Source: Enterococcus sp. DIV0212c
GTDB lineage: Bacteria; Bacillota; Bacilli; Lactobacillales; Enterococcaceae
Length of the DNA stretch: 64,000 nt
Assembly: GCF_017377505.1 (NCBI RefSeq)
Contig: NZ_JAFREN010000008.1
Span: 239,184-303,183, forward strand
Direction of reading: 5' to 3'
The position numbers and the translations under genes were made by a program. Numbering within the stretch: position 1 is the stretch's first letter; each line of letters opens with the position of its first letter. Below the pieces are notes generated by a model, which did not search any database, was not told the origin of the DNA, and was given only the letters and a program-made list of their open reading frames with translations. Positions 17,746-42,953 of the stretch are shown piece by piece.

Positions 17746-18681
17746 ATGACATTTGATTTTAAAACCCATATCGACAACTATCTTGAAGAACGAAAGACAT
17801 TCAGTAATATTTCAAAAAAAACTTTAAAAGCTTATTATTCAGATCTAATCAACTTAAATCAATTCTGTTCGAAAAATAATTACCCTTATCCAGTTGGCAT
17901 TACTAAATATATCAGCGAGTTTCAAAAAACGTTGAAAGCAACCACTTTAAAACGTAAAATCGTAGTCTTTAAAATGTTTTATAGATATCTAACAAATGAA
18001 AACTTAATGGATATCTCAACAATACAAAAACCTAACTTTAACTATTATTACATCACTCCAAGAAAATTGCCGAAAATAGTAACTCCGGATGAGATAAATA
18101 CAATGTTAAAGCAAATGTACTTACTTCAGGAATCAGGGTTGACCCCGTCAAAGTACAGAAACCTTCTTAGAGACATCGCATTAATTGAACTATTGATAGC
18201 AACAGGGATCAGAATCGGCGAAGCACATGCTTTAAATATTGTTGATTATCAACCTAATAGCCGTTTACTTTTAATAAAAGGTAAAAATCACAAAGAACGC
18301 CTTATTTATATTTCACCTTTTGAAACAAACAATGCTTTAACTGAGTATCTTTGTGCAAGAGAAGACTACCAACCCAAATCTAATGCTATATTTCTAAACA
18401 AATATGGTAAACGCCTTTCCATTTATGGCATTGAAAACATTTATTCAAAATATCGAGACTTAGCAAATATCGCCCCTGCTTCTACACCTCACCATTTACG
18501 ACATACATTTGCTACTGAACTTTTATCAAATGGTGCTGATATCCGAGAAGTTCAGGAGTTGCTTGGTCATTCAAGCATTGTAACCACACAGATTTATACG
18601 GCAGTAAGTACAAATCAGAAAATTAAAGTGCTGGATACTTATAATTTAAGGAATAAATTGCATCCAAAAACCTCCGAATAA
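17746..18681 (+). CDS. Tyrosine recombinase (XerC/XerD-like), candidate DNA invertase
   Basis: A 311-residue tyrosine recombinase. An N-terminal SAM-like core-binding domain (about 1-95) precedes the catalytic domain. Catalytic residues are all present: Arg156 (ATGIRIGEA), the hairpin Lys near 178-183 (IKGKNHKER), His249 and Arg252 (HHLRHTFATE), His275 (LLGHSS) and the nucleophile Tyr284 (TTQIYTAV). The last seven codons, including TAA, form the outer arm of the 26 bp repeat site at 18677-18702. The second repeat copy lies 3.5 kb away inverted, so this enzyme most likely inverts the DNA between them. It is not the housekeeping XerC or XerD by context. AT-rich like the two genes that follow; probably acquired. 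Confidence 0.92.
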   Translation: MTFDFKTHIDNYLEERKTFSNISKKTLKAYYSDLINLNQFCSKNNYPYPVGITKYISEFQKTLKATTLKRKIVVFKMFYRYLTNENLMDISTIQKPNFNYYYITPRKLPKIVTPDEINTMLKQMYLLQESGLTPSKYRNLLRDIALIELLIATGIRIGEAHALNIVDYQPNSRLLLIKGKNHKERLIYISPFETNNALTEYLCAREDYQPKSNAIFLNKYGKRLSIYGIENIYSKYRDLANIAPASTPHHLRHTFATELLSNGADIREVQELLGHSSIVTTQIYTAVSTNQKIKVLDTYNLRNKLHPKTSE

Positions 18682-18709
18682 CTATAAATTATTTGGAGGT
18701 TTTTGGATG
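18661..18709 (+). promoter_or_regulatory. Long hairpin covering recombinase stop, SD and ATG of the next gene
   Basis: Two 21-base arms (18661-18681 and 18689-18709) pair with a single G/A mismatch around the 7-base loop CTATAAA. In RNA the stem would bury the GGAGG SD (18695-18699) and the ATG (18707-18709) of the ATP-grasp gene. It also contains the recombinase stop TAA. No U-run follows, so it is not an ordinary terminator. It could block translation of the downstream gene, or allow it only when a ribosome finishing the recombinase opens the left arm. Confidence 0.75.
18677..18702 (+). repeat. Left 26 bp inverted repeat, candidate recombination site
   Basis: Identical, in opposite orientation, to 22131-22156. 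The core is an asymmetric 7 bp centre CTATAAA (18682-18688) with arms AATAA and TTATT, matching the two-arm plus spacer layout of tyrosine-recombinase core sites. In this copy the arms extend to 21 bases with one mismatch. It carries a GGAGG SD used by the adjoining gene. Confidence 0.88.
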
Positions 18710-19762
18710 TGTTATTTAAGTAAAAATAGTATTAATGAACTGGGTTGTCAAGGCGCACAATATATGAACAGCAAAACTCTTGTAATTATTTACAATGCTA
18801 TAGGTTTTACAGAAAAAATAGATAGTGAACAAGAGGACAGTGATTTCTTCTCCAATAAAGAGATAGGTGAAATTTTTGATGCTTTATATCTATCAAAAAT
18901 AACTATACTATCATATTCAAATGAGCTAGCTTTCGTTGATGATATTATCAACAAAAAATTAGATTTTGATAAAATAGTTGTTTGGAACCTATCTAGACAG
19001 GGATTCGATACTAATAAAAAATCTCTAGCAACAAGTTTATGCGATTTTTTACAAATTTCATATATAGGATCTAGTGTTTATACTATGAACCTTTGTCGAC
19101 ACAAATATCATTTTCAAAAAATTCTGTCGTCTTTTAGCCTAGCCTCAATTCCGACCTTTCTTCCCCATGAAATAACTAATAATAATGAACTATTTATGGA
19201 GAATCAGTATATCACAAAATATTTAAACGGTTCCGCTAGTCGAGGTATGAATCCAACAGATGCCATCAAGTCTTATGAACAAATCCATAAATTAGTAGAT
19301 ATTAAAACCCCAATAGTGATTCAAGAATATCAATCTGGCTATGAAATCGAGGTGCCGTTGTTCCAAATAAATCAAAAGTTCCAAGCTTTGGGAATTGCTG
19401 GGATTGCTATCAATGGGGAACGGTATTTCAAATCGGAATTTGTTCCAGAAGAACTATTCGAAACTACTTATTCTTTTTATAACTTTAGTCATTTTGCAAA
19501 AGAATTTTTGAATTATAATTCTCTTGATTTTATTGTTGATACTGCTATAAAAATAGCTGAGATTCTTGAATTAAAAGACTATTGTCGCATTGATTTCAGA
19601 ATAAATAATTTTGGTGAACTATTCTGTTTTGATATTTCAACTACTCCATACTTAGTCGAACACTCAAGTTTTAGTTTTTTAATACAAGATTATGGACTAA
19701 ATTATTCAAGCCTTCTCCCACTCATGATAGGAGCTTTTAACTCCAATATTGATAATCACTAA
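18707..19762 (+). CDS. ATP-grasp ligase related to D-alanine-D-alanine ligase
   Basis: A 351-residue ATP-grasp enzyme. Ddl-like blocks seen: YIGSSVYTMNLCRHKYHFQKIL (about 119-140), an ATP-binding Lys171 with glycine-rich GSASRG, IQEYQSGYEIEVPLF (205-219), CRIDFRI with Arg294 and Asp296, and a final metal motif FDISTTPY (308-315). Ddl normally has E-x-N-T-x-P-G there; here the Glu is Asp309, the Asn is Ser311 and the Gly is Tyr315, and the N-terminal EHSVS-type loop is not evident. It is therefore probably a ligase for another amino acid or peptide, not the essential Ddl. The start is ATG seven bases after GGAGG, inside the repeat hairpin; ATG at 18764 is an alternative. Its 3' end overlaps the NTPase gene by 26 bases. 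Confidence 0.75.
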   Translation: MCYLSKNSINELGCQGAQYMNSKTLVIIYNAIGFTEKIDSEQEDSDFFSNKEIGEIFDALYLSKITILSYSNELAFVDDIINKKLDFDKIVVWNLSRQGFDTNKKSLATSLCDFLQISYIGSSVYTMNLCRHKYHFQKILSSFSLASIPTFLPHEITNNNELFMENQYITKYLNGSASRGMNPTDAIKSYEQIHKLVDIKTPIVIQEYQSGYEIEVPLFQINQKFQALGIAGIAINGERYFKSEFVPEELFETTYSFYNFSHFAKEFLNYNSLDFIVDTAIKIAEILELKDYCRIDFRINNFGELFCFDISTTPYLVEHSSFSFLIQDYGLNYSSLLPLMIGAFNSNIDNH

Positions 19763-22124
19763 ACTGCCATAACTTCTGTAGTATAGGAGTTTGTTCACCA
19801 AAAATATTTGATAGTTCTGACTCTATATCTTTAATACTATAATTCCCTTCATTTTTATTTAGATAATTAATAATATATTTACTTTTTTTCTCAAAAGCAT
19901 TTTGAATATATTTTGTTTGGAATAGTGTAGGAATTTTGAGTGACTTTAGTTCTTCTAGATAATTATTTTTTTTACTTTTACTTGTTGGTTCTGAAAATAA
20001 TTGGATGAGTTTAAGATTGTATTGACAGAAGTAAATATAGAAGTCATCATTTGGTTCTTCACTTAGTACTTTTGTCAATAGTTTCTTTGCATTATTAAAT
20101 TCGCTCAGATAAAAGTAAAGACCAGCTAAATTTATTTTTATGATATGACTTTCGTTTTTGACGTTTAAAAAATTTTTAATCGATTTTTTTATAAACGATT
20201 TAGTTGGTGAGTTACATAGGATATACTTAGCTAAATAGATGTTATTGTCTAATTTATATCGCTTTTCAGAAAAGTTATAAATACATTGTTCATTTTTTTC
20301 AAAGTTTTTTAAAGATATACTCAAGGTTTCTTTTGTCAGATAAAAACTCACTCCTAATAAATTAGTTATAGTTAGAGCTACCAAATCATTCTCGTTAATG
20401 GCATAGGATGATGATTTATTTTTTATTTCTAATAATAGATTTTCAAGTTCTTCATAGGATTCCTCTGGAGGTAATAAACATGAAGAGAACAGTCTCATTT
20501 TTATGGCATAAGCATCATAAAACCCATTTTCTTGATATTTTTTTTCGTCCAAAATTAATTGAAGATCATCATAAATTTTAATAGCTTCTTTCAAGAATTC
20601 TTTATTAAGAACATTTACTAGTTGAGTGCTTAGCAACAACCCTATTTTCACTTGCATTTCGGTTTCTTTTTCAACTTTTAATTTTTTATAAATATCAAGT
20701 AACGTGCGTAACTCTAATTTAAGTTTTGGAAAGCGATCCACTCTATTTTCATAACTGTATGCTAATAGTAAGAAAGTATAGTAATAATGGTACTCAGCTT
20801 TTTCTAATAAATGAAGTCTCCGAGAGTAAGTACTTTTTAAGTTAGTAATTCTTTTAGTTATAATCAAATCATTTTCTTTGTCACTTAATTCGTCACTTGT
20901 ACCCAATTCTGTATTTAAAATTTTCAACAAATCATTGTGATATTTACTTAACTCGACACTATTTTGATCATTATTTCTTAAGGTATTTAAAAACAAATAT
21001 GTCTCGGATAAGTTCTTACTATAATATTTTGCATTCTCAGCTCGAAAAAGATAATCTTCTGAGTGAGTTTCTCTAATTAAATGATCAATTAGAAAAGAAG
21101 TATTCCTCCTTAGTCTCTTATTTGAATAATTCTCAATAAATTCGTCTCCTAATGCGCAAATTTCAGGGCTCAATTTAAAATTTACTCCATCAGATTTCAA
21201 TATATTTTTCATCTCTAGTTTTTCAAGCACACTGATGTAATCAAAAGATGAGTCTACATAAAATTTTTCCAAAATATCAAAATTAATATATTGATCAAAC
21301 ATATAAAAATATAAAATCAATCTGTTAGTGTCTACCAATGACTTATCGGTAGTATAGAAGATTTGATTTAAAATGTATTCCATTGACTTTTGCTCTTCAG
21401 AAATGGTAGCTCCATCTTTAAATAAAGAAAGTAAATGATATAACGTGCCGTATACTCCTTTAGTCATATCAATGAATAATCTTACTTCTTCATCATTTCT
21501 ATGTCGTAATAGCTCGAAAATTGCGCTTTCATTTCCTAATTTTCGCGACTTTTTTTTATAGTTTTGAAAATCTGAAAAAGATATTTTAGGAATTTCAATT
21601 GTGATAGGGTTCCTTTTGTTCATATTCTCAATAATAGTATTAGCAAGATTTTTATCTGAAGTTGTTATTATTGGTAAAATATTAGGGTTTTCAGAAATTA
21701 ATTGAAAAAAATGACATGAGTTTATTTCATTAATTTTTTCAAAATTATCTATCCATATAATGTATTTTTTTCTTTTGTTTTTATATTGTAAGAATTTTTC
21801 CCAAACACTTAAAGTGACATCAATTTTGTTAATTCCTGTAGAAATCCTGTTTGATAAGAAAGTTTCTTCAGGTTTTCCATTTTTTGATAATATTAAGTAT
21901 TGGGTATTACTTCCATAAATTTTGGTGATCTCTTCGATTTGTTTGTCTTTTCTGTATGAATCTATAAGTTTCTCAGCAACAGTTGATTTACCAGAATTTT
22001 TTTCCCCATGAATAACAATTATTCTATTTTTTAATATATTAAAATTAAATTTTCCAGATTCGCTTGGAGTAGCTGATGAGAAGAAATGATCAAATTTATC
22101 ATCCCAAAAATCAAATTCTGACAA
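19737..22124 (-). CDS. STAND-like NTPase with helical-repeat C-terminus
   Basis: A 795-residue P-loop protein with no signal peptide or clear membrane span. Walker A is GEKNSGKST (about 40-48), Walker B is YIIWIDNFE (about 121-129), and ILPIITTSD (about 149-157) resembles a sensor strand. A winged-helix-like region follows (about 190-330), then a long helical C-terminal half with TPR-like repeats, for example LAGLYFYLSEFNNAKKLLTKVL. This suits a STAND or MalT-like signalling ATPase, a class that includes regulators and anti-phage sensors; no HTH or effector domain is recognisable. The start is TTG at 22124, nine bases after GGAGG in the right repeat. Strongly AT-rich. Confidence 0.72.
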   Translation of the reverse strand: MSEFDFWDDKFDHFFSSATPSESGKFNFNILKNRIIVIHGEKNSGKSTVAEKLIDSYRKDKQIEEITKIYGSNTQYLILSKNGKPEETFLSNRISTGINKIDVTLSVWEKFLQYKNKRKKYIIWIDNFEKINEINSCHFFQLISENPNILPIITTSDKNLANTIIENMNKRNPITIEIPKISFSDFQNYKKKSRKLGNESAIFELLRHRNDEEVRLFIDMTKGVYGTLYHLLSLFKDGATISEEQKSMEYILNQIFYTTDKSLVDTNRLILYFYMFDQYINFDILEKFYVDSSFDYISVLEKLEMKNILKSDGVNFKLSPEICALGDEFIENYSNKRLRRNTSFLIDHLIRETHSEDYLFRAENAKYYSKNLSETYLFLNTLRNNDQNSVELSKYHNDLLKILNTELGTSDELSDKENDLIITKRITNLKSTYSRRLHLLEKAEYHYYYTFLLLAYSYENRVDRFPKLKLELRTLLDIYKKLKVEKETEMQVKIGLLLSTQLVNVLNKEFLKEAIKIYDDLQLILDEKKYQENGFYDAYAIKMRLFSSCLLPPEESYEELENLLLEIKNKSSSYAINENDLVALTITNLLGVSFYLTKETLSISLKNFEKNEQCIYNFSEKRYKLDNNIYLAKYILCNSPTKSFIKKSIKNFLNVKNESHIIKINLAGLYFYLSEFNNAKKLLTKVLSEEPNDDFYIYFCQYNLKLIQLFSEPTSKSKKNNYLEELKSLKIPTLFQTKYIQNAFEKKSKYIINYLNKNEGNYSIKDIESELSNIFGEQTPILQKLWQFSDYQYWS

Positions 22125-22130
22125 TTTTCT

Positions 22131-22156
22131 AAACCTCCAAATAATTTATAGTTATT
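22131..22156 (-). repeat. Right 26 bp inverted repeat, candidate recombination site
   Basis: Exact inverted copy of 18677-18702. On the minus strand the centre CTATAAA (22151-22145) has perfect 7-base arms CAAATAA and TTATTTG, but beyond these the outer arm diverges, so this copy cannot form the long hairpin of the left site. Its GGAGG serves the NTPase gene. Confidence 0.88.
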
Positions 22157-22164
22157 TGAATATT

Positions 22165-22195
22165 ATTATATCACATATGAAAGTAATTATTAACA
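22165..22195 (-). promoter_or_regulatory. Inward promoter outside the right repeat
   Basis: On the minus strand TGATATAAT forms an extended -10 (TATAAT at 22170-22165, TG at 22173-22172). The -35 region is poor (TTAATA), as is usual for extended -10 promoters. Transcription would begin near 22158, at the very edge of the repeat, giving a leader of about 35 bases to the NTPase start. Because it lies outside the repeats it would drive whichever gene is on the right. Confidence 0.62.
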
Positions 22196-22484: not shown

Positions 22485-23177
22485 TTATTTTTCGTCTGGC
22501 ACTTCAATCTTCTCAATTTTATTAAAATCATCTAATTCTGACTCAATCTTGATAATGACTTTGCCTTTTTTGTTTTTTCCAATGATTTTTATTTTCATTT
22601 CTTGTACATTAAATGATTGTTTATCAACATATATCCCTAGCTCAATTGTTAAATCCTCATCCGTGTCAAAACCAGTAAATGAGACATTATAGTACTTTTT
22701 CAACATTTTAAATAATTTTTTATCATAACCTTCATACGTAAAATGATACACATCTTGGGTTGTTTCCATCTCTAAATCTTCAGAAACTAACCTTATTATT
22801 TCTAAAGGAACACTATAATCTACTTGTTTGCTAAATTCTTTAGCGTCAACTTTCGCTGTTTTTTTCCAAACTCCTGGTCGATCTTCTAAAAAAGCTTTGC
22901 CAGATGTTACAATAAATTCAAAGTCTTCACCCTCAGCACTAGTTAAATCAATATGATAGCTGTTATTTTTACGATCTACTTCTGTACTCATTTCAACAGT
23001 TGAACTATCTTTTTGACCATATGAACTTGTATTTACACTGATATCCATATCCAATGAATAGCTGTCTATCTTTTTTTCTTGTGTATCCATCCGCTTAAGC
23101 ACAGCATCCTTTGAAAGTGGTTTATTACAACCAGCTAATGTAAATAATAAAACAATTACCAAAACAGTTTTTTTCAT
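22485..23177 (-). CDS. Cell-surface lipoprotein, unknown function
   Basis: A predicted 230-residue lipoprotein. A basic start MKKTVLVIVLLFTLAGC carries a lipobox LAGC, so it should be diacylated and anchored outside the membrane. The mature part looks like an all-beta LolA/LppX-type fold: IDSYSLDMDISVNTSS, VTSGKAFLEDRPGVWKKT, and later LGIYVDKQSFNVQEMKIKI. This resembles DUF6612-type lipoproteins of Firmicutes. The ATG at 23177 follows GGGGAG; a TTG at 23198 would add seven residues before the signal peptide. Single-gene unit. Confidence 0.78.
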   Translation of the reverse strand: MKKTVLVIVLLFTLAGCNKPLSKDAVLKRMDTQEKKIDSYSLDMDISVNTSSYGQKDSSTVEMSTEVDRKNNSYHIDLTSAEGEDFEFIVTSGKAFLEDRPGVWKKTAKVDAKEFSKQVDYSVPLEIIRLVSEDLEMETTQDVYHFTYEGYDKKLFKMLKKYYNVSFTGFDTDEDLTIELGIYVDKQSFNVQEMKIKIIGKNKKGKVIIKIESELDDFNKIEKIEVPDEK

Positions 23178-23314
23178 TTTCTCTCCCCAAATCCCCAATT
23201 TATTTACTCCATTAATTATTATACTAAACCAAAATCTAAAATACGACTTTTTTTCTAAAGTTATTCATGATCCAAAATCGAGATGTAAAAGGTTCACCAT
23301 TTTATTTGGATTTT

Positions 23315-42694: not shown

Positions 42695-42918
42695 AAAAAC
42701 GATAGCCCGCCCCTTTATAAAGGAACGAGCTATCGTGTTACCATCCTACTTCATGAAAAAATTCATGCACTCAATTCTTATAACGGCTTTCACCGGTCTA
42801 TTCTCTTTGGAACAAACAAACTCCGGAAGTGAACTTCATTTTTCGATTACGTAACCTGTTTGCAGTCTAAGACAGGTATTCCCTTGAACGTATCTAGCCA
42901 AATTACTCTTTTCCATCA
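42695..42918 (-). ncRNA. T-box riboswitch controlling pheST
   Basis: A tRNA-sensing leader on the minus strand. The T-box itself, AGGATGGTAACACG, is at 42747-42734. It is followed by an intrinsic terminator, CGATAGC with GCTATCG (42735-42729 and 42706-42700), and a T-run. The antiterminator would use the T-box and the 5' side of this stem. A UUC phenylalanine codon lies at 42833-42831 in the specifier region, fitting pheST downstream. The leader starts near the promoter at 42926-42953. Uncharged tRNA-Phe should allow readthrough. Confidence 0.9.
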
Positions 42919-42925
42919 ACATTTT

Positions 42926-42953
42926 TTATTATTCAATTGATTACAGTTTACAA
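42926..42953 (-). promoter_or_regulatory. Promoter of the pheST leader
   Basis: On the minus strand TTGTAA (42953-42948), 16-base spacer, TAATAA (42931-42926). It sits at the 5' end of the T-box leader. Confidence 0.55.

Follow-up and report, generated by a model that had tools for sequence, protein, structure and literature searches.

At positions 17746 to 22195 of a 64,000-nucleotide (nt) stretch of the Enterococcus sp. DIV0212c genome (the window, to which all coordinates without a locus label refer), a tyrosine recombinase gene adjoins a cassette of 2 convergent genes, encoding an ATP-grasp protein and a P-loop, STAND-like protein, enclosed by inverted repeats. The anatomy of this locus, its conservation, its modularity, and the difference in its orientation between genomes are documented below. 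Judging from the sequences compared, the locus is most probably a DNA inversion switch that chooses between 2 alternative genes, likely the parts of a 2-part conflict (anti-phage) system. The most striking result comes from related invertible cassettes, in which ThsA and a TIR protein are split to opposite ends of the cassette.

In the proposed mechanism, the recombinase would exchange strands at the 7-bp centers of the 2 inverted sites and flip the 3.4-kb cassette. Transcription from the promoter outside the right site would begin at the repeat or immediately beside it, and the gene located there, with an exposed Shine–Dalgarno (SD) sequence, would be ON. For the gene behind the recombinase, an outer CCTCC arm would fold onto the SD and could act as a terminator, leaving that gene OFF; a flip would exchange the ON and OFF genes. 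The cassette would most likely combine an enzyme half with a P-loop/STAND-like half.

Table 1. Features of the candidate switch locus (window coordinates; aa, amino acids).
Feature	Position	Strand	Details
Tyrosine recombinase (XerC/XerD-like), presumed invertase	17746..18681	+	Pfam Phage_integrase, E 1.4e-36
Terminator-like hairpin over left site, SD and ATG of ATP-grasp gene	18661..18709	+	Fold, terminator scan
Left (terminator-side) recombination site	18671..18699	.	CCTCCGAATAA-CTATAAA-TTATTTGGAGG
26-bp inverted repeat, left copy	18677..18702	+	AATAACTATAAATTATTTGGAGGTTT, perfect; SD GGAGG at 18695-18699
ATP-grasp protein, D-Ala-D-Ala ligase fold, 351 aa	18707..19762	+	Presumed OFF in assembled orientation
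P-loop, TPR-like (STAND-like) protein, 795 aa	19737..22124	-	AAA_14 5.6e-5, below cutoff; Walker A; presumed ON as assembled
26-bp inverted repeat, right copy	22131..22156	-	Perfect, inverted; SD GGAGG at 22134-22138
Promoter-like TTAATA-17-TATAAT with upstream TG	22165..22193	-	Points inward, 8 nt outside right site

Anatomy of the locus and evidence for inversion

The initial annotation, made from the window sequence, had described a recombinase with all catalytic residues, perfect 26-bp inverted repeats sharing a CTATAAA center in opposite orientation, and only 2 convergent genes between them, each with its SD inside a repeat. All of this was recovered. Besides the Pfam match, R156, K180, H249, R252, H275, and Y284 are invariant across 10 aligned recombinases (the window's own included), and the 3′ end of the recombinase gene runs into the left repeat copy. 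When the same 8 kb was Markov-shuffled 100 times, perfect inverted repeats (spacing >200) reached 17 nt at most, versus 26 bp here. The asymmetric 7-bp center is common to both window sites, in opposite orientation, and within the window's own genome (3.54 Mb, labeled G000) the site was found at these 2 places only, also when up to 2 mismatches were allowed.

The 2 cassette genes overlap by 26 nt, and nothing else lies between the repeats. The ATP-grasp protein resembles D-Ala-D-Ala ligase (Ddl) in its modeled fold and is unlike it in falling below every listed curated NCBIfam Ddl/Van cutoff (best 59.7 bits versus 245.65) and in having a STAND-like gene as its convergent neighbor within a flip cassette; assignment as a D-Ala-D-Ala or D-Ala-D-Ser ligase was rejected because the curated cutoff was not reached. 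The label "STAND-like" is plausible for the second protein, although weak in the window copy, whose best Pfam AAA/nSTAND matches lie below or barely at the cutoff; a Walker A motif (GEKNSGKS) is visible. Its predicted structure is of low confidence (mean predicted local distance difference test score 51.5), and several of its relatives match NB-ARC, nSTAND, or TPR models.

A comparison of orientation among related genomes had been named beforehand as a test of flipping, and the opposite orientation was found. Between the window and Enterococcus quebecensis (G081, same genus), the flanks are collinear and the cassette is inverted, with breakpoints at the repeats; in E. quebecensis, the STAND start adjoins the recombinase, and the ATP-grasp gene takes the promoter end. 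Likewise, G237 and G354, 2 genomes of the same order with sites of family f3, carry a 3.4-kb cassette that is 78% identical and inverted, with breakpoints at the repeats, between flanks that are 89% to 90% identical. G072 and G083 also differ in the cassette end that lies next to the recombinase. Both orientations occur in nature between species, with breakpoints at the sites.

Flipping is probably also ongoing within cultures. We considered 14 assemblies with at least 6 contigs and both sites or broken ends (G000, G073, G078, G081, G085 to G088, G183, G237, G255, G327, G351, and G354), 4 of which are interrupted at a repeat. The cassettes of G081 and G088 form separate contigs bounded exactly by the sites, with a 97-nt overlap with each flank contig (the 3503-bp G081 cassette contig matches NZ_MIKB01000006.1 in length and ends); in G085, the recombinase contig stops at the site and has a 26-nt match to both cassette ends; and in G255, a contig terminates within the outermost part of the repeat. 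Such breaks would be the expected assembler output if the reads held both orientations. A search of 5.8 billion proteins with the ATP-grasp sequence yielded 24 matches, the window's own included, and for 4 of them (48% to 53% identity) the longest contig measures 3374 to 3512 bp, the size of the cassette. Furthermore, the 7-bp center is identical within both sites of each locus (12/12), with six forms across the 12 loci. Strand exchange by tyrosine recombinases requires matching centers in the 2 sites, and this within-locus identity therefore fits inversion. The earlier proposal that the sites dictate inversion thus gains support from opposite orientations, assembly breaks at repeats, and locus-specific centers.

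Promoter side and hairpin side

The 2 outer flanks of the cassette carry different signals. On the right, the inward-pointing extended −10 recognized in the initial annotation was confirmed (22193-22165, minus strand). On the left lies a feature absent from that annotation, a hairpin in which AAAAACCTCC outside the left site pairs with GGAGGTTTTT; it folds with −33.8 kcal/mol (z −9.3; 18650-18730), the unpaired probability of the SD is 0.00, and an Rfam scan at the gathering threshold placed no family on it.

The sites were compared as a class in 12 loci (G000, G077, G081, G085, G086, G087, G088, G073, G078, G084, G240, and G145). TATAAT or TACAAT lies outside one site in all 12, at a distance of 8 to 9 nt (5 in G085); in G077, the automatic −10 scan chose an overlapping AATAAT instead. 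On the opposite flank, the best −10 hexamer deviates at 2 to 3 positions in 11 loci and at 1 (TATAAA) in G085. The outer arm AAAACCTC(C/T) is likewise found in 12/12 loci, with CCTCC in 11 and CCTCT in 1, and the promoter-side site is without the CCTCC arm. Folding yielded a terminator-side SD accessibility of 0.00 in 23/23 folds (23 rather than 24 per side, one G085 gene end being too short in each state). When fold start and length were varied across the 12 loci, this value never exceeded 0.001, and on the promoter side the per-locus mean was 0.24 to 0.79, with minima down to 0.02. The SD is closed in every terminator-side fold and open to a variable degree on the promoter side.

Because the promoter lies on one flank and the CCTCC hairpin on the other, only one gene would be ON, and a flip would transfer that state to the other. 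The suggestion that one or the other gene is expressed under a single promoter is consistent with this pairing of a promoter-like −10 with an anti-SD hairpin, from which we infer the ON/OFF assignment of the 2 genes in Table 1. The site may thus be a crossover point, a ribosome-binding site, and an RNA off-switch at once.

ThsA/TIR pairs and interchangeable modules

Thoeris defense needs both ThsA and ThsB (PMC7272460). In seven related invertible loci (G087, G255, G351, G327, G203, G183, and a gut contig), ThsA lies opposite a TIR protein. The ThsA model matched 30 times in 395 genomes, 16 of the matches being full length, and 6 of these 16 (G087, G327, G351, G203, G183, and G255) are convergent to a TIR gene, each pair being enclosed by inverted repeats of 18 to 40 bp and accompanied by a recombinase of the same kind. 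The remaining 10 full-length ThsA genes run in the same direction as a TIR-like gene (judged by eye), and such repeats are absent from the approximately 1.5 kb of sequence on either side; they are also absent around the 14 partial matches. The number of independent cases is smaller than 6, because 4 of the 6 loci are close relatives (87% to 95% identical DNA). The gut contig (MT835475, from human feces, filed as unverified phage) has its pair flanked by 19-bp repeats, with a recombinase adjacent.

The ThsA proteins of the invertible cassettes combine SIR2 with a STALD/SLOG domain. The PADLOC ThsA model matches them with E-values of 4e-100 (G087), 2.7e-97 (gut contig), 8e-100 (G255), and 2e-153 (G351); the search of the genomes gave those of G327, G203, and G183 E-values no weaker than 4.1e-151, and G087 ThsA matches PDB 6lhx (E 2e-61). 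Their TIR partners match PADLOC ThsB with E-values of 1.6e-9 (G087), 3e-7 (gut contig), 6e-7 (G255), and 1e-7 (G351). The Pfam TIR match is clear for the G087 partner, and Glu74 is invariant in six TIR partners. The partners are nevertheless not unambiguous ThsB proteins: for those at L068 5974-6681, L100 9123-9854, and L101 4764-5477, the candidate model PDC-S66 scores better than ThsB, and these proteins may constitute a distinct TIR subfamily associated with invertible cassettes. Of the ThsA catalytic residues, Asn112 is kept in 4/4 aligned sequences and His152 is changed to Asn in 3/4 (L038 7107-8471, L068 4580-5986, and L100 7797-9164), so that these three may not hydrolyze NAD in the usual way; the family f3 copy (L101) keeps His. 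The window cassette was rejected as a Thoeris system, its genes being ATP-grasp and STAND-like and not SIR2-type ThsA and TIR ThsB.

The window cassette belongs to a group of interchangeable 2-gene modules. Its site occurs with up to 2 mismatches in 8/105 genomes of the bacterial family, and a palindromic site with a free center in 11/395 genomes of the order, with no control matches in either search. One of the latter 11, G207, has a lone palindromic site (L059 7709-7741) with no recombinase or cassette seen nearby, either a relic or a chance terminator. Relatives of the ATP-grasp protein were found in 6/105 family, 7/395 order, and 2/398 phylum genomes, the window's own counted each time. 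The whole design, namely a tyrosine recombinase, inverted repeats, and a convergent partner of approximately 780 to 840 aa, is present in 10 of the 11 ATP-grasp loci opened: G000, G081, G088, G073, G072, G083, G237, G354, a Paenibacillus plasmid (30-bp repeat), and Methylobacterium radiotolerans pMRAD01 (17-bp repeat including both start codons). The eleventh, G440 from the phylum sample, has no such repeats and no convergent partner. Since the site sequences differ between groups, it is the architecture and not the sequence that is conserved. A search of viral contigs returned no relatives of the ATP-grasp protein or of the gut-contig ThsA; the recombinase search returned 2 plasmid records, Paenibacillus (with cassette) and Aliarcobacter, and 1 phage contig.

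Other cassettes hold different pairs: an SHMT-like enzyme opposite a P-loop/TPR (STAND) protein in G077, G086, G084, and G240 (the G240 enzyme recognized by eye), a methyltransferase opposite a membrane-protein-like gene in G078 and G145, and a polyprenyl synthetase opposite another membrane-protein-like gene in G085. The SHMT-like gene of G077 is split in 2 frames (L031 9857-10920), and this half of the pair, on the terminator (OFF) side, may be broken. Sister recombinases adjoin different modules in 3 cases: G000/G081 (ATP-grasp/STAND) versus G077 (SHMT/STAND) at the same chromosomal place (window and G077 82% identical), G087 (ThsA/TIR) versus G088 (ATP-grasp/STAND) with aligned flanks (84%), and G085 (prenyl synthase) versus G086 (SHMT/STAND) with neighbors alike by eye (74%). 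In the recombinase tree, of which 21 rows were used and 2 disregarded (rows intended as XerC/XerD paralogs of the window genome but in the wrong reading frame), the support for these groupings is 100/100, 100/99, and 97/93, respectively. Known defense genes adjoin several cassettes, the neighboring proteins having been picked by eye with no blind count. In G088, a type I-C CRISPR-Cas operon adjoins the recombinase of the ATP-grasp/STAND cassette (L041 2404-10302).

Alternative explanations, related systems, and implications

The repeats could be transcription and translation signals, a terminator on one side and a leader on the other, that resemble recombination sites, with no flipping at all. 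The terminator-like fold of the left site and the SD sequences in both repeats would be expected in that case, but the opposite orientations with breakpoints at the repeats, the intact recombinases next to them, the centers that match within and differ among loci, and the assemblies broken at sites would not; on these 4 counts a simple terminator was rejected, and signals without flipping are very unlikely. Sites for cassette capture or exchange (integron-like or recombinase-mediated), with inversion a by-product devoid of regulatory meaning, would account for unrelated cassettes beside sister recombinases, for a cassette G+C content 2 to 12 points below that of the flanks in 16/17 loci (Methylobacterium being the exception), and for the cassette loss in G074, where the window's place (L030 7600-7870) retains one hybrid site facing the promoter. 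Nevertheless, each of the 12 compared loci has kept its promoter-like −10 outside one site and its anti-SD arm outside the other, and the opened cassettes have 2 convergent coding ends, one per site. We consider capture without regulation improbable; the integron possibility was weighed from anatomy only, with no attC search made. It is also improbable that a once active switch is now frozen in the window strain: the window locus was assembled through both sites, and in G074, along with the loss of the cassette, the recombinase has an in-frame stop ahead of the last catalytic His and Tyr, but the window recombinase is intact and its repeats are perfect, and a frozen relic was rejected for the window on that basis.

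Several observations weigh against the inversion switch or against parts of it. Ten of the 14 multi-contig assemblies, the window's included, span both sites without a break, and flipping may therefore be rare. The promoter-side SD accessibility is only moderate (0.01 to 0.80, and <0.2 in 7/23 folds). The family f3 sites (TAGTGATAATAAATAGTTATC and near forms; L079 to L082, L065, and L066) have no CCTCC arm and, unlike the CCTCC class, carry −10-like elements outside both ends, for which reason their either/or control may be loose, a matter of degree. With respect to defense, PADLOC scores for the window proteins are only E 0.059 (ATP-grasp) and 0.005 (STAND), metabolic genes surround the window cassette (by eye), and PDC-S66 equals or beats ThsB for the TIR partners (1.6e-9 in G087, 4e-13 in the gut contig, 6e-13 in G255, and 8e-16 in G351). 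A role of the cassette in defense is nonetheless somewhat favored, and the inversion switch remains the preferred explanation.

The design shares features with several known switches. The G segment of phage Mu (Gin-type) is likewise invertible and contains alternative genes that an external promoter reads, but there a serine recombinase alternates versions of one function; here, the recombinase is of the tyrosine type, the 2 proteins are unrelated, and the site would also be a ribosome-binding site and RNA hairpin. A serine-invertase G/P-segment switch was ruled out by the type of the window recombinase. Thoeris (SIR2-SLOG ThsA and TIR ThsB) is matched by the facing ThsA and TIR genes of the invertible loci, which differ in being convergent from the other 10 full-length ThsA loci, co-directional by eye; the window carries ATP-grasp/STAND instead. 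PsrA of the pneumococcal cod locus is a tyrosine recombinase beside inverted repeats that acts on a restriction-modification locus, moving sequence between hsdS genes of one subunit (PMC7096588), whereas here whole genes of a pair would be exchanged at a promoter. The fim and C. difficile RecV switches also use short inverted repeats and a site-specific recombinase for ON/OFF expression, and the flipped segment is 154 to 230 bp in C. difficile and 314 bp for fim (PMC5903667); here, the promoter is fixed and a 1.5- to 4.3-kb coding cassette flips. The initial annotation knew of no described system pairing the 2 window genes in one invertible cassette, and no ATP-grasp/STAND flip cassette or invertible Thoeris was found in the open-licence literature searched (most subscription journals and all preprints lie outside it).

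Elsewhere in the window, a DUF6612 lipoprotein gene (22485-23198) lies between the cassette and a branched-chain aminotransferase gene and is not listed at the corresponding spot in G074, G077, and G081. A T-box leader (Rfam RF00230, 101 bits) occupies the minus strand at 42718-42928.

It is possible, although we hold this only tentatively, that the device is general: a recombinase-run socket for 2-part immune systems, in which the halves, a signal-making enzyme and an effector, are kept from joint expression, only a minority of cells arm their defense, by chance, and modules are swapped during evolution. Both halves would then coexist only for as long as the earlier protein outlasts a flip, or in cells with chromosome copies differing in orientation. 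That Thoeris needs both proteins, yet the invertible loci set ThsA facing its TIR partner, poses a testable paradox on arming. Should the same hold for the ATP-grasp/STAND pair, the device would mark a 2-gene defense family outside the PADLOC models, and inverted repeats beside a recombinase would offer a handle for finding further immune pairs. A single site acting as crossover, ribosome-binding site, and RNA off-switch would be a compact regulatory solution.

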